NCBI GenBank assembly: GCA_011391015.1
Contig: JAABRH010000009.1
Coordinates: 1 to 42,425 of the forward strand
Length of the DNA: 42,425 nt
Origin: Sulfurovum sp.
Lineage (GTDB): Bacteria; Campylobacterota; Campylobacteria; Campylobacterales; Sulfurovaceae
Reading direction: 5' to 3'
Shown: one piece after another, positions 28,023 to 38,388 of the stretch
Layout of the letters: every line of letters begins with the position of its first letter
Numbering within the stretch: the stretch's first letter is position 1
The notes under the pieces: generated by a model
What the model saw: only the letters and a program-made list of their open reading frames with translations
Told to the model about the DNA's origin: nothing
The model's database searches: none
Made by a program: the position numbers and the translations under genes

Positions 28023-29990
28023 TTATCTTGCTTTACACAAATTTTCAATAATATCTACAATAGATGGGTCTTCTAGCGTAGAGATGTCCTGAGTGATTGT
28101 TTCACCTTTGGCAATGGCTCTAAGGAGACGACGCATAATCTTGCCTGATCGTGTTTTTGGAAGATCAGGTACAAAGACCATGTCATCACACAGCGCAATA
28201 TTTCCTATCTCATTTTGAATGATCTTATTGATCTCTTTCATGGTCTCAATCTCATCGGCTGCATCATCTTTGTGCACTACTGGTACGGATTTAAGTACAA
28301 CATAGGCAAAGATGCCTTCTCCTTTGAGTTCATGCGGTTTGCCTACCACTGCCACCGCAGCGACATTGCTGTGCTTTTTGATCGCTGCTTCCACTTCAGC
28401 TGTGCCCATACGGTGACCCGATACATTGATCACATCATCCGTACGGCCCGTGATTGTAATGTAGCCATTTTCACCATAAATAGCTCCATCACCTGTAAAA
28501 TAGACTGGTTTTCCCTTATGGATCACATCACCAAAATAAGACTTTCGAAAACGCTCATCATCTCCCCATACCCCGCGTATCTGAGAGGGCCACGGGCGTG
28601 TAACACACATATATCCGCTTTCGCCTTCGCCCACTCTCTCACCCGTCACAGGATCAAGTATTTCAGCCATGATACCCGGCAAAGGAAGTGTTGCACAGGC
28701 TGGTTTTATGGGTGTAGCACCAGGGAGCGGAGATACGATATGCCCGCCTGTCTCAGTCTGCCAATAAGTATCTACGATAGCGCACTTGCTTTGCCCCACT
28801 TCTTCATAGTACCATTTCCATGCAGGCGGATCGATAGGCTCCCCAACAGTTCCGAGTACTTTAAGGGAAGAGAGATCATATTTAGCCGGTTCATCTTCAC
28901 CCATTTTATGTAATACACGAATTGCCGTTGGCGCTGTGTAGAATTGGTTTATTTGGTGCTCTTCTACCATTTTCCATGGACGCCCTGCATCAGGAAAAGT
29001 AATGACCCCCTCAAACATCACCGTCGTAGCCCCCATCGCAAGAGGTCCGTATACGATGTAGGTATGCCCAGTAATCCATCCCACATCCGCTGTACACCAG
29101 TAGGTATCATTTTCTTTCACATCAAACACCCACTCCATGGTCATCTGTGCCCAAAGGATATAGCCTGCGGTGTTGTGCTGTACGCCTTTTGGTTTACCTG
29201 TACTCCCAGAGGTATAGAGCAGAAAGAGAGGGTCTTCACTCTCCATCACTTCAGCATCGCAGCGGTTTGATTTGCTCTTGATGAGTTCATTGTATGAGTA
29301 GTCACGTCCGGCTGCCCATGTCACTGCTTCATTGTTTCTCTCTACAACCAACACGCTCTCAACCGGTGTTTCTCCCGTCAGTGCTGCATCGACCACGGGT
29401 TTGAGCATGTATGGTTTTGTTTTTCTGTACGCACCGTCTGCAGTGATGACCACTTTTGCCTGCGCATCTTCGATCCTGTCACGCAGTGCTTCTGCAGAAA
29501 ATCCCCCAAAGACGATGGAGTGTATCGCACCGATACGTGCACAGGCAAGCATAGCATACGCCGCCTCAGGAATCATCGGCATATAGATAATGACTCTGTC
29601 ACCTTTTTTTACACCAAAATCTTCCTTCAGAAGATTGGCAAATCTGTTTACATTGTAAAAAAGATCCAGATAGGTAATGACCTGTTTGTCCCCGCGGTCA
29701 CCTTCGAAAATGATGGCTGCTTTATTTTTATGCATTTTTAGATGACGGTCGATACATTGGTGTGCAACATTGAGTTTCCCGCCATCGAACCACTTTACAA
29801 AAGGTGCATTAGACTCATCCAGTACACTATCATACGGCTCAAACCAATCGATCTTCTCATCTGCATAGACTTTCCAGAAACCTTCATAATCATCCGTCGC
29901 TTTTTTGACCAAAGCATTGTATTCATCCATACTTTTTATTCTTGCATCTTTTGCAAATTCAGGGTTTGGCTGATAGATTTCTTGTAACAT
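28023..29990 (-). CDS. acs: Acetyl-CoA synthetase
   Basis: Acs converts acetate, ATP and CoA to acetyl-CoA. The 655-residue protein has the full set of adenylate-forming motifs: [42 protein letters not shown] and the carboxy-terminal [14 protein letters not shown], with Lys617 the equivalent of the lysine whose acetylation inactivates Acs in other bacteria. Start: ATG at 29990 with GAGGA before it. It is the last gene of a one-strand acetate cluster; an 8-bp palindrome lies 27 bases before the start. Confidence 0.97.
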
Positions 29991-30045: not shown

Positions 30046-30678
30046 TTAAACTCTACGCAATGCGCCTTTACTTCTTGACATATTTTTTAACTTGATATAC
30101 ATCATGGCTGTCATCACCGCATCATTGAGTGCATCATGCCCCGGCAGGTTCGGCAAAGCCAGATCTTTAACTATAGAATCAAATCTCAAATCGATATGCC
30201 CCTGAGGTATTCTTGCAATTTTCTGATCATAATAGAGTGCAGAGACCTCTTCTTTTCTGTTGGGTAGCGTTATACCAAACATGGGCTTAAGAGTTTTGTT
30301 TATCATCGCCACATCAAACTCAAGATAGTAGCCCACCAGTGTTTGGCTGCCTATATAATACAGAAATTTCTCTATCGCTTCATCCAAAGGAATCGCTCCG
30401 TCCAAATCACAGTTTCTTATTTGATGAATGGTAATGCTTTTATGGTTTATTTCTTCTTTTTGCTGAACCAAAAGATGTAATGCTTCATTGGTTAAAATTT
30501 TGTTTCCTTTTATTTTAACTGCACCTATAGAAATAATGTCATCAATTTTTGGGTTCAGTCCTGTTGTTTCGCAATCAAATACAACATATTCATCTGCGTC
30601 GGGTTCTTCAAACAAAAAAGAAAAACGCTCCTCTTTTAAACATTTAAAATTGCGTTTTTGTTTCCATTTTTCAAACAT
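30046..30678 (-). CDS. DnaQ-like 3'-5' exonuclease (DEDDh)
   Basis: The 210-residue protein has all catalytic residues of a DEDDh exonuclease: Asp35 and Glu37 in VFDCETTGLNP, Asp122 in YYLEFDVAMIN, and His181/Asp186 in GHDALNDAV. The family includes the polymerase III proofreading subunit and RNases; this short version linked to a nucleotidyltransferase protein is unlikely to be the main replicase subunit. It starts 3 bases after the upstream DUF294-type gene, so the two are co-expressed within the acetate cluster. Substrate is unknown. Confidence 0.88.
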   Translation of the reverse strand: MFEKWKQKRNFKCLKEERFSFLFEEPDADEYVVFDCETTGLNPKIDDIISIGAVKIKGNKILTNEALHLLVQQKEEINHKSITIHQIRNCDLDGAIPLDEAIEKFLYYIGSQTLVGYYLEFDVAMINKTLKPMFGITLPNRKEEVSALYYDQKIARIPQGHIDLRFDSIVKDLALPNLPGHDALNDAVMTAMMYIKLKNMSRSKGALRRV

Positions 30679-30681
30679 ACC

Positions 30682-32508
30682 TTAACTTACCACTGACAGA
30701 TGAAAATGATGACTAATACGTTTTTTGAATGCATTGACTGTCTTTAAAACCTCTTTGAGTGCATCTCTCTCAATTTTACTCAGAGCACTTAAAGAAATGT
30801 AGTTATCAATTGGTTCGCCTTTTGACTGTTTGATTAGCTGTGCATCCAGTCTTAAGGTATTGATCACCTCCAACGCTTCAATTAGATTCTTCGCATCTTG
30901 TTTACTAAGGTAGCCAATATTGTTAAGTTCTTTAATTCTCAAAGAGGTATTTGTCAGAGTTATCCCATACTCTAAAGCCAGTCCCCTCACCCCATGAACC
31001 AATGCAAAAAGTGCACCTTTTTTCATGTCTATCTGATTTTTATGTTCTTTATCAGTGCTGATAAATTGCGAAAATAGTCCTAATGGAGATTCAAAATGCT
31101 CAATGGCACGTACAAAATGTGGTAGTATGGTCTTTGTCTCTTGCACTTTTTGTATCATATAGGCTTTGAGCCTTTGATGCAGGCTTTCATCTCCTGCCAC
31201 ACTCATGGAATCGAAAAGGATTGCCATGTCCATAAAACCCTCATACGTTGGGGCATCTACCCATGTGTCGATATCTTTTTTATATGCCCTAAGTGACTTA
31301 GCCCATTTGGGGTTAATCATCATCACATTGCCTTCACAGCGGGGAAACCCTATCTCATCCAATACTGCAATAAACCGTTGCGTTATTTCTTCCAACCACT
31401 CTGGCTCATAGGTATCTTCAAATATCAATGCATTGTCCTGATCCGTACGCAAGATTTGCTCCCCCCGACCTTCACTTCCCAATACGATAAAGTTTGACTT
31501 TTCTCTACACTCCTTTGGCATGATAAACATAAAAATTTTCATATACATCTTACGGTTAATCTCTGAGATAAGTTTGGCAATATACCGCGTTTTAATCCCT
31601 TTGGCATGTAACGCTTCTATGATGACATTGACTCTTTTTACCGCAGTGATAACCGCATCTAGCGTGAGTGCTTTTTCTACTTGAACACTCACAAGATGTG
31701 TTTGATTGGAAAAATAACTCAAGAGGTCGATCAACTCTAAAATACCTATGGCTTTGCCCTGTTCATCCAAAACCGGAAGATGTTTGATTGAGTGTCCTGT
31801 CATAAGTAAAAGAATGTTAAAAAGCAACTCTCCCTCTTGTATAGTAGAGATGGGATAAGTTTGTATATCTGCTGCCACTCTAAGGTTTTCTTTCTCTTTA
31901 TTGAGTATGTAGTAGCGTAAATCTTTATCAGTGATGATTCCATATCCCTCAGAATTTTCAACCAATATGGAAGTCGCATTTTCTCTATCCATCTGTTCCA
32001 GTGCTTCTAAAATCAGTGTTTGTTCTTGTGCAATAAACACTTCATGAAGAATAGACTTATCTACCCTTGATACCATCAAATCACCAATGGCTGAAAACTC
32101 TTTTTTGTCTTTTAGCAACTTCATCCTCTCTACCATCGTAGAAAAAAAGTATGCCTTAAATGTCTGGTTTTTTTGAGTCAATGCTAAAAATACCTTTGCC
32201 GGTATCTCATAACAGATCAGCTCCTCATCGACACTATAGTCATAATCCGAAGTTTTATTCTCAATCAATTCGATACCACCAAATGTATCATGATTTTGAT
32301 ACACGTCAATCATCTCTTCTTCTTTTTGACACACTACCCTACCTTTAATAATATAATAGAGGGATTGTAATGTAGCATGTTGACGAATAAGAACTGTTGA
32401 TTTTGGATAATACGCGATTTGAGCAGAAGTTTCTATTTCTGAGAAAGACTCCTCATCCATATATGAAAAAGGAATGTATGTTTTCAAACTTTCTAATAAT
32501 GCAATCAT
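30682..32508 (-). CDS. cNMP-binding / CBS / DUF294 nucleotidyltransferase regulator
   Basis: The 608-residue protein has three parts. Residues 1-130 resemble a cyclic-nucleotide-binding barrel (YYIIKGRVVC, GGIELIENK). Residues about 150-270 are two CBS motifs (ENATSILVENSEGYGIITDKDLR and HLPVLDEQGKAIGILELIDLL), which usually sense adenine nucleotides. The rest is a GlnD-like nucleotidyltransferase with GSEGRGEQ at 344-351 and the metal-binding Asp356 and Asp358 in TDQDNA, followed by a helical substrate-binding domain. By analogy with GlnD it may attach a nucleotide to a partner protein. It lies after actP and a strong hairpin. Target is unknown. Confidence 0.88.
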   Translation of the reverse strand: MIALLESLKTYIPFSYMDEESFSEIETSAQIAYYPKSTVLIRQHATLQSLYYIIKGRVVCQKEEEMIDVYQNHDTFGGIELIENKTSDYDYSVDEELICYEIPAKVFLALTQKNQTFKAYFFSTMVERMKLLKDKKEFSAIGDLMVSRVDKSILHEVFIAQEQTLILEALEQMDRENATSILVENSEGYGIITDKDLRYYILNKEKENLRVAADIQTYPISTIQEGELLFNILLLMTGHSIKHLPVLDEQGKAIGILELIDLLSYFSNQTHLVSVQVEKALTLDAVITAVKRVNVIIEALHAKGIKTRYIAKLISEINRKMYMKIFMFIMPKECREKSNFIVLGSEGRGEQILRTDQDNALIFEDTYEPEWLEEITQRFIAVLDEIGFPRCEGNVMMINPKWAKSLRAYKKDIDTWVDAPTYEGFMDMAILFDSMSVAGDESLHQRLKAYMIQKVQETKTILPHFVRAIEHFESPLGLFSQFISTDKEHKNQIDMKKGALFALVHGVRGLALEYGITLTNTSLRIKELNNIGYLSKQDAKNLIEALEVINTLRLDAQLIKQSKGEPIDNYISLSALSKIERDALKEVLKTVNAFKKRISHHFHLSVVS

Positions 32509-32567: not shown

Positions 32568-34238
32568 TTAGTGACTTGTGTTGGCATCATCTGCACCAAT
32601 GCCTGTTTGACATCTGATATCTTGCGCATCAAATGCATCCATACATCTTTGTGCGTCATCTGATTTGTCTGTAACAGAAAAAAACCAAATAGCCATAAAT
32701 GCTAAAGGCATTGAGAACACAGCCGGAAAGCTATAAGGTACAATGGCTGAAGCATTACCTAAGATATCTACCCAAACACCAGGACCAAGGATGACAAGCA
32801 TAAGTGCCGAGATCAAACCGATATATCCACCCACCACTGCACCTCTTGTTGTGAGCTTTTTCCAGAAGATTGACATAAACAATACAGGGAAGTTGGCTGA
32901 TGCAGCGATGGTAAATGCCAGAGCAACAACAAATGCGATATTTTGTTTTTCAAAAGCGATACCAAATACGATTCCCGCAATACCAATAGCAACAGTCGCC
33001 ATTTTTGAAACATTCATCTCTTTTTTCTCATCTACTTTAGATGTTGCAAATGCATTGGCATAAAGATCATGTGATATTGCCGAAGCACCTGCCAAAGTAA
33101 GACCAGAAACCACTGCAAGAATAGTAGCAAAGGCAACTGCAGATATAAATCCTAAGAAGTAATCACCGCCTACTGCGTGAGCAAGCCAGACTGCTGCCAT
33201 GTTGTTCATCCCTTTGAGCGTTACACCATCTGCTGCCAAATAAGAACCTGCTGGGTCACCAAGTACAAGCACAATAGCACCAAAACCCATAATAAATGTC
33301 AGTACATAAAAATAACCGATAAGACCTGTTGCAACAAAGACTGATTTTCTTGCCTCTTTTGCATCAGCAACCGTAAAGAATCTCATCAGAATATGAGGAA
33401 GACCTGCTGTACCGAACATCAAAGCAATACCTAAAGAAATCGCTGAAATAGGATCGCTTACAAGTCCGCCGGGGCTCATAATGGCTACACCTTGAGCATG
33501 AATCTCTGTTGCTCTTGTAAAAAGTGCATCAAAGCTAAATCCAAATTTGGCCATCACCATAATGGACATAAATGTTGTACCTGCAAGAAGTAAAACCGCT
33601 TTAATGATCTGTACCCATGTGGTTGCAAGCATACCGCCAAACACGACATATAAGATCATCAGTATACCAACAAGAACAACGGCAAACTCATAATTCAAAC
33701 CAAATAGAATCTTAATCAATTGACCTGCACCAACCATTTGAGCAATCAAATAAAGAATAACAACAGACAAAGATCCCAGTGCTGCTAAAATTCTTACCTG
33801 TTTTTGTTTCAATCTATAGGCAGTCACATCGGCGAAGGTATATTTACCAAGATTTCTAAGCTGCTCAGAAATCATAAAAAGAATGATAGGCCACCCAACC
33901 AGAAAACCGATTGAGAAGATAAGACCATCATACCCTTTAAGGTATACCATTCCGGTAATGCCAAGGAAAGAGGCTGCTGACATATAGTCTCCAGCAATCG
34001 CTGTACCGTTTTGCGTACCTGTTATACCGCCGCCTGCAGTATAAAAGTCTTTAGCCGATTTTGTTCTTTTGGAAGCCCAATACGTCACACCCAGTGTTGC
34101 CGCCACAAAAATAAAGAACATCACAATCGCAGGAATATTCATAGATTCCGCTTTTGCCGTCTCACCAATATCTGCACCGACTGCCATGGCAACCGTAAGT
34201 CCTGCTACCGTAAATAGAGATAAAATTCTACTCAACAT
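32568..34238 (-). CDS. actP: Cation:acetate symporter
   Basis: The 556-residue inner-membrane protein belongs to the sodium:solute symporter family with about 13 transmembrane segments and a leading signal-like segment. ActP-specific stretches are [33 protein letters not shown] and [15 protein letters not shown]. It takes up acetate and related short carboxylates. The ATG overlaps the yjcH stop as TAATG, and acs lies three genes downstream, which supports acetate as substrate. Confidence 0.93.
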
Positions 34239-34558
34239 TAATTCATCTCCTTTTTCAAATCACTTTTTAATTCATTTAAGATTCCATCAAATTCACTATT
34301 GGCTCTTCTTACATACACACCTGTCATTACAAACGCAAAAACAATAATGGCTATACCAATAGGAATACCCCATGTTGCCATACCATCAGGGCTTATTTTT
34401 GTTCCCAATGTTTCGGGGCTGAATGCAATAAATAAAATAAATGCATAATAGACTACTAACATGATAATAGTCAGCGTCCATGCAAATTTACTTCTTGTAC
34501 TTACTAAGTGTTGATACTTAGGATTATTTTTAATCACTTGTACATGTTCTTTCGTCAT
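34238..34558 (-). CDS. yjcH: DUF485 membrane protein YjcH
   Basis: The 106-residue protein has two transmembrane helices, about residues 28-46 and 66-87, and the family pattern [18 protein letters not shown] followed by [19 protein letters not shown] and [11 protein letters not shown]. YjcH is regularly encoded just before actP and is thought to help the symporter fold or work. An AAGGAGAAAAG site precedes the ATG, and it overlaps actP by one base. Confidence 0.92.
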
Positions 34559-34626: not shown

Positions 34627-36000
34627 TTAAAAGTTGTAGTTTGCTATAACTCTGTATTCATCCCAGTCTAAATCTGGTGCAAAATCTCTTGGGTAATTGG
34701 CTCTAAGTTTTAAATTAAGACCTTTTACTGCTGCGACATCGTATGATATATCAAACCCACTTTCTGTTGCCGTCCATGCTTTTCCTGGTTTATATGTGTT
34801 CAATGAGCCCACATCAAACTCTGCATAGTACGCAGAAGCTAAAATTCCCGTGTCGGAAAACTTATAAGCTCCTGCCACTTTCCAAGTATCAGTGTCTGCA
34901 AAGAATTGATGTCTTGTTACCATACCTTGTGTATATGCCGGCATACCACCCCATGGAGTGATAATCCCACCATTCATTGTCCCGTCACTGTCCCCTGTTA
35001 TAGAATAGGCAGCATATCCGCTGAGTGCACCATATGATACACCTATTTTGGTTCCAAAATAGTCACTGTCTACAGAAGCTGCAAAAGTATCACCAATATC
35101 TGTTTCATTTATGTATTGTCCAGAAACAGTCATCTTAACAGTATCTGTGACAGTCCAAGTATAATCTGCATCTAAATATATTAAATTAAGAATATCCCAC
35201 GCAATGTAATCCCATAGTTGGGCTTTTAAACCTTCTATTCCTGTATACACTGCTGCCAATGCTGTAACACCTGCTGTACTGTTATCTGTGCTGCCATCAC
35301 CATTTACATCATTGTAGCCCAAAGCAATAGTTCCCATATTTGCAAACGTACCGCTTGAGCCTTCTTTAAAACCCAAACCATAACCACTTTGAAGTGCCAG
35401 TGCTTGATTCGAAGGATCACCGACACTATAGACATTCGAGAATGTACCCGTTGTCTCTCTGCTTACATGTGCAGCGATCAATGTAGTATTTTCCACATCC
35501 GTGTTACTGAGTACAGCTGCTTCAAAAAGGTTTGGCAGCATTCTTGCATCATCTGCACCTGCCATAGGTGTATTAAGTTCTTGACGCCCTATTTTAATAC
35601 TGGTATTGCTAAATGCATAGTTCATATATGCCTGTCCAATAAATGCATAATTATCAAAATTATCTCCATAATGCGAAGGTTCGTAACTTGAAGAACCGAT
35701 AACGTCCGCATCTTCACTATGGATATCAAAACCATATGTTCCATAAGCTGCCACTACAGCACTAAAGCCATTCATTACTGGTGATTTATATCCAATATAA
35801 CCACCTGTAGCAAGTGCATTACGATTATTGTTTACCGTACCAGCATAGGTTCTGTCAATGTAAAATGTTCTGGATTGTCCAAAAATCTCACCATAATCCG
35901 GCTCTGCTGCCACCTCTACTACGGACTCAACAGGCTTTATCTCTCCACCCGCCATAAGCACCGCAGATACTATGACTGATAGCACTAGGTACTTTCTCAT
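34627..36000 (-). CDS. Outer-membrane porin (OprD/MOMP-like)
   Basis: The 457-residue protein has a signal peptide (MRKYLVLSVIVSAVLMAG) and alternating beta-strand patterns typical of a trimeric or OprD-like porin; it ends in Phe, the usual last residue of outer-membrane barrels (VIANYNF). An early block FGQSRTFYIDRTY resembles epsilonproteobacterial major porins. It probably lets acetate or other small carboxylates through the outer membrane, given its place between a sensory pair and yjcH-actP. An AAGGAGAAG site precedes the ATG at 36000. A repeat array lies just upstream. Confidence 0.85.
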   Translation of the reverse strand: MRKYLVLSVIVSAVLMAGGEIKPVESVVEVAAEPDYGEIFGQSRTFYIDRTYAGTVNNNRNALATGGYIGYKSPVMNGFSAVVAAYGTYGFDIHSEDADVIGSSSYEPSHYGDNFDNYAFIGQAYMNYAFSNTSIKIGRQELNTPMAGADDARMLPNLFEAAVLSNTDVENTTLIAAHVSRETTGTFSNVYSVGDPSNQALALQSGYGLGFKEGSSGTFANMGTIALGYNDVNGDGSTDNSTAGVTALAAVYTGIEGLKAQLWDYIAWDILNLIYLDADYTWTVTDTVKMTVSGQYINETDIGDTFAASVDSDYFGTKIGVSYGALSGYAAYSITGDSDGTMNGGIITPWGGMPAYTQGMVTRHQFFADTDTWKVAGAYKFSDTGILASAYYAEFDVGSLNTYKPGKAWTATESGFDISYDVAAVKGLNLKLRANYPRDFAPDLDWDEYRVIANYNF

Positions 36001-36147: not shown

Positions 36148-36810
36148 CTAGATCTGTTTAGAAATCCTATATCCGACTCCCTTGAGTGTTGAGATCAAAT
36201 CTTCTTTGAGTACTTGACGTACTCTGTGTATCTCTGATCTGATGATGGCATTATCTACAGGGCTATCATCCCATGCGTAGTGCCTAAGCATTTCAAGGTC
36301 AACCACTTTATTGATATTTACTGCAAAAAGTTCCATAATTTGAGATTGTTTATTGGTTAGCAGTTGTTCTACACCGTCAAATAATAGACATTTGTTCTTA
36401 ACGTCATAAGAATACATTTTTGAGATCTTTATAAAACTCTTTGCCCTGATATCTGCGATTTTCAACAATCTCTCAATATGTAGGCTTAATTCTTTAAGAT
36501 GAAAAGGTTTTTTCAAATAGTCATAACATCCCAAAGCGTAGGCTTGGGAAATCTGCTCTATTTCGGTGATGGCAGAAATGAAGACAGTAGGTACATATAT
36601 CTTCTCTTTTTGCAGTCTGCTCAGTAAAGAAATGCCATCTATCGTAGGTGTATTGATATCAAAGATAAAAAGGTCATAGTTGTTCACCACTATGCTTTCA
36701 TATGCTTCCCGACCATCTTCAAATGCCGTTACATCATACCCCGTATCTGTCAGATACTCTTTTATAGCACTTTGCAACATCAACTCGTCTTCAAGCAATA
36801 CTACTTTCAT
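36148..36810 (-). CDS. OmpR-family response regulator
   Basis: The 220-residue protein has a receiver domain (about 1-115) with acidic Glu7/Asp8, phospho-acceptor Asp51 and Lys101 in the KPF motif, then a winged-helix DNA-binding domain (about 125-220) with LTNKQSQIMELF and DNAIIRSEIHRVRQVL. It starts directly after the stop of the histidine kinase (TAA-ATG), so the pair is co-translated. Likely targets are the porin, yjcH-actP and acs genes downstream. Confidence 0.93.
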   Translation of the reverse strand: MKVVLLEDELMLQSAIKEYLTDTGYDVTAFEDGREAYESIVVNNYDLFIFDINTPTIDGISLLSRLQKEKIYVPTVFISAITEIEQISQAYALGCYDYLKKPFHLKELSLHIERLLKIADIRAKSFIKISKMYSYDVKNKCLLFDGVEQLLTNKQSQIMELFAVNINKVVDLEMLRHYAWDDSPVDNAIIRSEIHRVRQVLKEDLISTLKGVGYRISKQI

Positions 36811-38388
36811 TTACGCTTCCTTTCTGAACCTATAGGAAAATATGGTCATTTCATCGCTGGACTGTACATATATTTTTACATTTTCCTTTTGACAGATAGT
36901 ATAGACTATTTCAAGTCCCAAACCAAAACCGCCTCGCACATCATTTTCACGTTGATAGGCTTTAAATATACGTTCTGTATCTTCTATTTTAGGGGAAACC
37001 GTTAGAAATTCCAAAACAATCTCTTCTTTTTCTTCTTGAAGTCTGACCTTGACATCAGTACCTTTATTGGCATATTTGATCGCATTGGACAAATTGTTAT
37101 CTACAATTCTCTGTAGTTCTTCAAGACTAAAATAAAGCCATAGGGAATTTTGTATTGCCGAGATAATCGTGTGTTGGTTGCCTTTTGCTATTTCATAGAA
37201 AAAGTCAATCCTTTCCTTAAGAAATGCAGAAACATTAAGCCGCTTTTTCACATAGTCAAAACGGTTTTTTTTCACCATATAGCTCAAATCTTCATATATC
37301 GTACTGATGATCTTGCTGGCTGCTTCTATTTTGCTCAGATATCTGTTTTCACCTTCTTTCATTTTAAACAGATCAATATGTGTCATGATTACTGCCAAAG
37401 GTGTATTGATCTCATGAATAGAATGTTTGATAAAACTGTCTTGGGCTTTAACAAGCGAGGCATTAAAATCTTTTTCCTGTGCAAGTAGTCTATTTTGCTC
37501 ACTGAGGTCTTTGGTCTTTTGCTCTACCTTTGATTCAAGTGCAAGATTCAACTCTTTTAGTCTCTCTTTGCGTCGGTGAATGACACGAATCATCGTATTA
37601 ATATAAGGTACCATTCTTTTAAACTCAGCAAGCCGTATCTTGGCATCATCTATCATTACATATGTCGATGATGCCTCTTTAAAATAGTTGCTAAAGGAAG
37701 ATATCTCTTTTTGAAGGATACGATTTGTGATGATGATACCTATAATACCCACGACACATAAAATACCCAAAAGAAAGACCATTTTCATAGAATATTGATT
37801 GAGCCTGCTTTTAAGTATATCTCTCTCTTCTTGTATCTGTTTGTTCACTTCATCAAGATATACACCCGTACCCACCATCCAACCCCAAGGTTCAAATGAT
37901 TTTGCATAAGAGATCTTAGGGCTTAATGAACTCGTAGTAGGTTTAAGCCATTGGTATTCAACAAAACCACCCTCTTTTTGACGTGACATATTGATAAGAT
38001 CCTTGATGACCATCACCCCGTTGATATCTTTAGTCTCATAAAGATTTTTGCCTACATTCTGTTTTTGTACCGGATCAGAAAGCACCATACCCGTAAAATC
38101 ATAGATAAATATATATCCTGTACCGTCCTGGCGACCATACAGATTCTCTATAGCATCGAGTATCTGTTTTTTCAGTAATGCTTCATCTTTGACACTATCA
38201 CTATATTGATACGCATGGTTGATAAAATGCAGTACACGCATCGTATCAAAAACGATCGTATCTTTTTGTTTTTGTATAAATGCTGCTTGAATTTTTTTAG
38301 CTTCAGATTCAAAATTTTGATATTCTTTATAGGCAACAAAAACAGAAAATACAATAATGACAACAAGTATCAGCAGCATACCGATCAA
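36811..38388 (-). CDS. Cache-domain sensor histidine kinase
   Basis: From a TTG start the protein has 525 residues: a membrane segment (about 3-20), a periplasmic single-Cache domain (about 25-200; GTGYIFIYDFTG, WGWMVGTGVYLDEV), a second membrane segment (about 201-221), a coiled coil, and the kinase core with phospho-accepting His325 in HEINTP, the N box DNNLSNAIKYA and the G2 box GGFGLGLEIV. The G1 box DxGxG is replaced by TVSPK. Cache domains of this type often bind acetate, propionate or pyruvate. The start is doubtful: a GTG at 38429 with AAAGGA before it would be in frame if the T-run at 38423-38416 had one more base. Confidence 0.88.
   Translation of the reverse strand: MIGMLLILVVIIVFSVFVAYKEYQNFESEAKKIQAAFIQKQKDTIVFDTMRVLHFINHAYQYSDSVKDEALLKKQILDAIENLYGRQDGTGYIFIYDFTGMVLSDPVQKQNVGKNLYETKDINGVMVIKDLINMSRQKEGGFVEYQWLKPTTSSLSPKISYAKSFEPWGWMVGTGVYLDEVNKQIQEERDILKSRLNQYSMKMVFLLGILCVVGIIGIIITNRILQKEISSFSNYFKEASSTYVMIDDAKIRLAEFKRMVPYINTMIRVIHRRKERLKELNLALESKVEQKTKDLSEQNRLLAQEKDFNASLVKAQDSFIKHSIHEINTPLAVIMTHIDLFKMKEGENRYLSKIEAASKIISTIYEDLSYMVKKNRFDYVKKRLNVSAFLKERIDFFYEIAKGNQHTIISAIQNSLWLYFSLEELQRIVDNNLSNAIKYANKGTDVKVRLQEEKEEIVLEFLTVSPKIEDTERIFKAYQRENDVRGGFGLGLEIVYTICQKENVKIYVQSSDEMTIFSYRFRKEA

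Follow-up and report, generated by a model that had tools for sequence, protein, structure and literature searches.

What is a nuclease gene doing between the genes for an acetate symporter and an acetyl-CoA synthetase? The question is raised by a locus of Sulfurovum sp. (assembly GCA_011391015.1, contig JAABRH010000009.1, positions 1 to 42,425; this whole stretch of 42,425 nucleotides (nt) is called the window). A DEDDh 3'-5' exonuclease of 210 amino acids (30046–30678) and a putative nucleotidyltransferase of 608 amino acids (30682–32508) are encoded there on the minus strand between actP and acs. An original prediction, made from the letters of the window, had put the two genes 3 bases apart, as the coordinates confirm, and had suggested that the transferase attaches a nucleotide to ActP, YjcH or Acs and that the exonuclease removes it. 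The two genes almost certainly make up one functional unit. As a two-gene module they are real, widespread and probably old, and very likely act as one regulatory device. The writer-eraser idea is reasonable and partly supported, the gain being on the transferase side. We tentatively read the pair as a reversible nucleotidylation switch on the uptake, by SLC5 symporters, of acids such as acetate and pyruvate, a reading that carries somewhat more doubt than confidence.

The joint occurrence of the two genes was examined in three samples. Among 200 Campylobacterota genomes, the transferase domain DUF294_C and the exonuclease family PRK09145 score over cut-off in an identical set of 38, with 43 copies each. 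In the 37 of these besides the window's own, the exonuclease lies within 1.5 kb of the transferase in 43/43 matches, one gene being split into two matches. The same distance holds for 78/87 matches across the 80 best named loci, with three of the nine misses at contig ends; these loci were picked for their similarity to the window, which biases the set. The Pseudomonadota sample comprised 100 regions from a 200-genome draw, with 8 DUF294_C places of at least 60 bits (counted by hand) left out; an exonuclease lies no more than 3 kb from 90/103 transferase copies, on the same strand in 89 cases. The recurrence of such pairs in other proteobacteria, which the original prediction had mentioned, is seen in this survey.

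Distance matrices of the transferase and exonuclease correlate with r = 0.73 in the ActP-linked set, 0.93 in the SSS-linked set and 0.89 in the Campylobacterota ActP-linked set, which is part of the first. The corresponding values for transferase and symporter are 0.70, 0.31 and 0.75. A natural fusion from Pseudomonadota (L307:6000-8117) joins RNase_T, CBS, CBS, DUF294 and DUF294_C in a single chain of 705 amino acids, beside SSS/DUF4212 genes. A P. aeruginosa plasmid carries a pair that aligns with the one in the window at 28% over 596 amino acids and 37% over 188, and whose exonuclease is above the PRK09145 cut-off. Because some Pseudomonadota partners come from another exonuclease subfamily (one that was scanned is nearest PRK09146) and partner scores spread widely, the coupling is suggested to predate the acetate cluster.

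One further long frame, L122:12029-14962 (977 amino acids), was considered as a transferase-exonuclease fusion and rejected; it holds a transferase with a shortened DUF294_C in frame with acetate kinase. It may have arisen by a deletion that took out the exonuclease.

Active sites and predicted folds

The transferase matches, in order, a cyclic nucleotide monophosphate (cNMP) binding domain (E = 4e-11), two CBS domains (2.6e-14), DUF294 (7e-38; 31243–31635) and DUF294_C (1.3e-40; 30703–31125), the last a putative substrate-binding helical domain. It exceeds the Pfam gathering scores of PF03445 (130 bits, cut-off 21) and PF10335 (138.9 bits, cut-off 22.5). Conservation was scored in 232 rows taken from the window, the 37 Campylobacterota regions, the 80 named loci and the 100 Pseudomonadota regions, leaving out plasmid rows, rows containing stops and rows that score below 200 bits. 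The catalytic motif GS...R.EQ...TDQDN (residues 344–359, 31432–31479), which is of the GSx10DxD type, is intact in the window and in 232/232 rows. G344, S345, R348, D356, Q357, D358, C391 and G393 are invariant.

The AlphaFold2 model of the transferase (predicted local distance difference test (pLDDT) 86.1, predicted template modelling score 0.63) was compared with solved structures. The top three entries are the GlnE halves 1v4a (Z 26.1) and 3k7d (Z 25.1) and DrrA 6yx5 (Z 25.7), in matches that span 293–340 residues; entries matching the cNMP domain only rank lower (best Z 18.6). The predicted fold is thus nearest to the protein adenylyltransferases GlnE and DrrA, and a shared fold is no proof of function. 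The original prediction had called the transferase centre GlnD-like. The centre is indeed intact, but the fold lies nearest to GlnE and DrrA, and GlnD_UR_UTase (PF08335) stays below its cut-off (15.1 bits against 21). DUF294_C has been grouped with the C-terminal domains of GlnD and GlnE (PMC3710099). On balance, the transferase is somewhat more likely than not to be a protein nucleotidyltransferase.

The same prediction credited the protein with two nucleotide-sensing modules, of which the CBS module fares better. In CBS1 the motif G190-x-x-T193-x-x-D196 (31921–31941), which we take to be of the adenosine-ribose or adenylate-binding type, is mostly kept (G190 in 199/232 rows, T193 in 220/232, position 196 D in 155 and N in 31). 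CBS2 has mostly E where S/T is expected. The cNMP-binding-like domain (residues 33–114, 32167–32412) is gapped in 26–28 of the 232 rows. Its columns around 79 and 88–90, placed by eye, lack a conserved Glu and Arg of the CRP type, the residues expected in a cyclic AMP (cAMP) phosphate-binding cassette. Judging from the alignment, an adenylate sensor is therefore better sought in the CBS module than in the cNMP domain, where conserved cAMP contacts are missing. Sensing of cAMP was considered and is unsupported, as these contacts are unconserved and class III cyclase, the sole class searched, was found in 16/38 pair genomes.

The exonuclease carries an RNase_T domain (E = 7e-24) and scores 275.3 bits against a cut-off of 189 for the NCBIfam equivalog PRK09145 (NF006601). 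All five DEDDh residues are present (D35, E37, D122, H181 and D186), so the centre is intact, as had been predicted. Conservation in 210 rows is 207 for D35 and 206 for E37 (motif D35-x-E37, 30568–30576), and 206 each for H181 and D186 (motif H181....D186, 30121–30138). Position 122 is occupied by D in 175 rows and by E in 32, and at least one of D35, E37, H181 and D186 is missing from six rows. The folds nearest to the AlphaFold2 model (pLDDT 91.8) are the exonuclease domains of DnaQ, DinG and PolC, and RNase T.

In 25/90 Pseudomonadota pairs the exonuclease forms the C-terminus of a protein of 465–760 amino acids with 2–3 membrane segments predicted from hydropathy; L247:3501-5618 is one example. 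Weak PAS matches were seen in 2 of the 5 such proteins scanned with Pfam. Partners of this kind accompany 20/21 transferases without the cNMP domain, the last of the 21 being the fusion, versus 5/69 with it, and many of the cNMP-less transferases belong to one clade, so that the association may reflect few events. Because membrane-segment exonucleases accompany cNMP-less transferases, sensing can, it is suggested, sit on either member of the pair and the exonuclease can act at the membrane.

Neighbours of the pair

Since the pair stands between a symporter gene and acs, we asked which of the two it follows across genomes. Two SLC5 symporter types have DUF485 or DUF4212 as their small subunit, and at least one of these is present in 38/38 Campylobacterota pair genomes. 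With a DUF485 line at 92 bits the symporter-bearing genomes coincide with the 38 that have the pair; this line was drawn post hoc (94.4 versus 90.3 bits on its two sides). Fisher p values for this co-occurrence ignore descent. Six genera of mixed content have the symporter in 10/10 pair-bearing and 0/13 pair-less members, and Acs is retained in 11/13 of the pair-less members. Acs scores over cut-off in 32/38 pair genomes and fails to do so in 6; it occurs without the pair in 38 genomes. The pair in Campylobacterota thus follows SLC5 symporters, ActP/DUF485 or SSS/DUF4212, and not Acs, and it is probably tied to the symporter.

The linkage is not always one of position. In 6/38 pair genomes the pair lies apart from DUF485/ActP, yet both are present. 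Arcobacter-type arrays have one pair behind SSS/DUF4212 and another behind ActP. A tree of 233 transferases, built by a fast method and with many long branches, holds 5 changes of neighbour between ActP and SSS, a count whose meaning is limited by clustering through descent. The link is looser in Pseudomonadota. Among the 103 copies there, a symporter is found in the region of 62, a CrbS-like kinase with 26, and neither with 35. The CrbS-like label is itself an assignment from a profile built on matches to one plasmid kinase, whose SSF match scores 20.1 bits, below the cut-off of 22.8. DUF294_C of at least 60 bits was found in 41 of the 50 Pseudomonadota genomes having DUF485 and in 37 of the 150 lacking it.

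An acetate-only role, as in the original prediction, finds no support. The pair also follows SSS/DUF4212, and single plasmids place it in other company: on a Bacteroidota plasmid it lies amid sugar-hydrolase genes, and on a Paracoccus plasmid the transferase is beside a major facilitator superfamily (MFS) gene, and genes for a kinase, a regulator and an exonuclease follow downstream.

The unlinked loci have an arrangement of their own. In L056, L063, L066, L074, L077 and L082 the pair is separate from symporters and stands behind a gene of about 215–246 amino acids; the one scanned, in L056, encodes a GDSL-type lipase. Five whole genomes are represented here, and in these DUF485-ActP lies elsewhere, followed by acs in 4 and cut at a contig end in the fifth.

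A proposed reversible nucleotidylation and competing explanations

The proposed switch would work as follows. The CBS/DUF294 protein, using ATP, would add adenosine monophosphate (AMP), perhaps as a short 3'-5' linked AMP tail, to a hydroxyl group on some protein that belongs to the uptake system, and the mark would lower uptake. The CBS module would read adenylates. The DEDDh exonuclease would take off the tag or trim the tail, keeping uptake on. Whether the exonuclease reverses the product of the transferase is evenly poised in our judgement. The symporter complex is the leading candidate target, an assignment about which we are doubtful. Of the three targets originally proposed, the symporter stays possible through its co-occurrence with the pair in Campylobacterota; Acs is an unlikely target because it stays without the pair and the pair occurs without it, and as a general target it was set aside.

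Proteins of the same kinds are encoded in the CrbS/R (= MxtR/ErdR) regulon by PP_0354/PP_0353 of P. putida and PFLU5625 of P. fluorescens. PFLU5625 has cAMP-binding-type, CBS and nucleotidyltransferase domains, and the P. putida protein has an RNase_T partner. PFLU5625 is under CrbS/R control, and its nucleotidylation activity has already been predicted (PMC5715377), so that for the transferase this idea is in print. Our literature search, mostly without subscription papers, found nucleotidylation proposed only with regard to the transferase, and no mention of an eraser role for the exonuclease; a term search of PMC5436829, on CrbS/R, gave no match to the pair genes. Acetate induces PP_0354, and ErdR binds its promoter (PMC8402216). 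pp_0354 and pp_0353 form an operon in P. putida (PMC9927547). Homologues in P. aeruginosa adjoin actP-yjcH. The pair is near glcB in both P. putida KT2440 and P. fluorescens SBW25 (PMC9927547), and in the window a Cache-type histidine kinase and response regulator adjoin the operon.

Deletion phenotypes are available from P. putida (PMC9927547). Loss of pp_0354 or of pp_0353 is without consequence on 20 mM acetate or succinate, and actP-I deletion has no effect on 20 mM acetate. Growth on pyruvate is impaired by deletion of pp_0353 or actP-I and not by deletion of pp_0354. Transposon data cited in the same paper, which its authors were unable to reproduce, have actP-I and pp_0353 mattering alike at 5 mM acetate. 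The accessible portion of the strain table lists single deletions only. Because loss of the exonuclease resembles loss of the transporter and loss of the transferase is silent, as expected of an inhibitory mark and its eraser, we infer that the mutants fit an opposed pair in which the mark set by the transferase would hold uptake down and the exonuclease would lift this inhibition.

Known systems supply partial precedents. GlnE resembles the window transferase in predicted fold (Z 25.1–26.1 over 297–340 residues) and unites writer and eraser in one system; however, it erases through a second nucleotidyltransferase domain (PMC12663964), whereas the partner in the window is a DEDDh hydrolase, and there is no sequence match. 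DrrA/SidM and SidD share the predicted fold of the writer (Z 25.7 over 293 residues) and the placing of writer and eraser on separate proteins (PMC12663964), but SidD has a phosphatase fold and the target is a host GTPase, Rab1. MntA, like the window transferase, has a GSx10DxD motif and a nuclease partner. It puts three 3'-5' linked AMPs on a tyrosine of HepT, which snake-venom phosphodiesterase removes in vitro, the cellular eraser being described as unknown (PMC7641770). HepT differs in being both target and toxin, and the transferase deletion in P. putida was harmless under the conditions tested. SelO and RNase Z offer a ribonuclease, the deAMPylase RNase Z, that erases the product of an AMPylase (PMC12663964); the enzymes are otherwise different, SelO being a pseudokinase.

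Several observations weigh against the proposed switch. Deletion of pflu5625 had a negligible effect on acetate (PMC5715377), and the pp_0354 deletion had no acetate phenotype (PMC9927547). In the RNase Z study the DEDDh enzyme RNase T did not act as an eraser, either on SodA-AMP in vitro or on SucA-AMP in cells (PMC12663964). A sequence profile of the transferase part gave no credible match among solved structures, where only the CBS and cNMP parts matched. Counting all DUF485 or DUF4212 over cut-off, the 38 genomes with the pair are joined by 39 without it, in which DUF485 scores lower, and the 12 pair-less loci inspected (11 genomes) have DUF485 with an ActP 55–64% identical to the window's. 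The acs-yjcH-actP locus of E. coli K-12 likewise lacks the pair, and a control search for DUF294_C in E. coli gave no match. In Pseudomonadota, 11/103 transferases have no exonuclease in the region, some at contig ends; 26/90 exonuclease-paired copies have neither a symporter nor a CrbS-like kinase within about 12 kb; and the 35 copies with neither neighbour share no common neighbour family, the largest cluster being 9 loci.

The search for a target residue belongs with these points. No tyrosine cleanly separates pair-bearing from pair-less sequences, either in ActP (120 versus 24) or in DUF485 (115 versus 24). The positions that differ by presence of the pair are L151, H at window W351 and A448 in ActP, and P66 and E89 in DUF485. 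The most skewed tyrosine is ActP Y393, in the SHDLY stretch, which is Tyr in 111/117 pair-bearing rows and Phe in 9/12 pair-less Campylobacterota rows; in the other pair-less rows, E. coli included, it is Tyr in 11/12. Y393 may be regarded as a weak lead.

How do other explanations compare? The exonuclease may be an ordinary 3'-5' RNase acting on carbon-metabolism mRNAs, with the transferase tailing RNA or doing something else. The P. putida authors themselves proposed mRNA decay (PMC9927547), and the nearest folds of the exonuclease, DnaQ, DinG, PolC and RNase T, agree with it, but the fold of the transferase ranks with protein adenylyltransferases and exonucleases fused to predicted membrane segments near symporters are unlike a general RNase. 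We consider such control of RNA 3' ends somewhat unlikely. Oligoribonuclease-type DEDDh enzymes break down short oligonucleotides, and the transferase could instead make a small nucleotide or oligonucleotide signal that the exonuclease destroys. This would suit a writer and a nuclease paired with domains of the nucleotide-sensing type even where no neighbour gene is common. The fold neighbours are again protein adenylyltransferases, however, and no receptor family is common to the loci seen, and such a signal is quite unlikely.

The transferase might also modify the exonuclease itself and so control the nuclease, as MntA does with the HepT RNase (PMC7641770). Tight pairing and the natural fusion are in keeping with this, but in P. 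putida deletion of the transferase with the exonuclease kept caused no growth defect on the tested carbon sources, unlike loss of an antitoxin, and the phenotype came from deletion of the exonuclease. An exonuclease target is accordingly improbable. A toxin-antitoxin system as such is not supported, since the partner is an RNase_T protein and no HEPN RNase, and the transferase deletion is silent. Modification of Acs or another acetate-activation enzyme draws on the position of acs directly after the pair, in the window as in many Campylobacterota loci, and on Acs being present in most pair genomes; the pair genomes without Acs, the Acs genomes without the pair and the mixed genera that keep Acs speak against it, and we regard it as very improbable. 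Anti-phage defence was also tried and set aside. In PADLOC the exonuclease matches a general DEDDh model at 101.6 bits and PDC-S48 at 40.8, the transferase reaches 22.7 bits with the cNMP part of PycTIR, and the two have no joint strong system match.

The nucleotidylation switch on symporter uptake can be stated more narrowly. The transferase would write short, 3'-5' linked oligo-AMP tails on the SLC5 symporter complex, and these would be trimmed, 3' end first, by the DEDDh exonuclease, an enzyme of the proofreading type acting here as a protein deAMPylase. This specific form is unlikely, and to the same degree so is its extension to a covalent carboxylate-uptake switch across Campylobacterota and Pseudomonadota that includes the membrane-sensor and single-chain versions. 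If the nucleotidylation switch is real, bacteria would govern acetate and pyruvate uptake through a covalently attached nucleotide for which they possess a dedicated eraser. DUF294 with the exonuclease, a large and so far uncharacterised family, would then gain a testable function, and a new eraser fold would join reversible AMPylation.

The operon in the window

The minus strand of the window reads histidine kinase, response regulator, OprD-type porin (34627–36000), DUF485/YjcH small subunit (34238–34558), the cation/acetate (monocarboxylate) symporter ActP (32568–34238), transferase, exonuclease and acs (28023–29990). From the porin gene opr to acs the successive intergenic distances are 68 nt, an overlap, 59, 3 and 55 nt. 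A simple scan for terminator-like sites found none on the minus strand in the stretch that separates opr from acs; it placed 4 within opr and 1 within acs, and counted 8 on both strands against 6.4 expected. Judging from position, the response regulator and sCache sensor kinase (36148–38388) are a possible regulator of the operon. In the kinase (36811–38388) the N-terminal part scores 121.5 bits with the NCBIfam model MctS and 84.9 bits with CtpM, both far below cut-off. Elsewhere in the window's own genome, an 834-amino-acid frame has a second, weak DUF294 match (G000:C2:33708-33923), and is perhaps GlnD.

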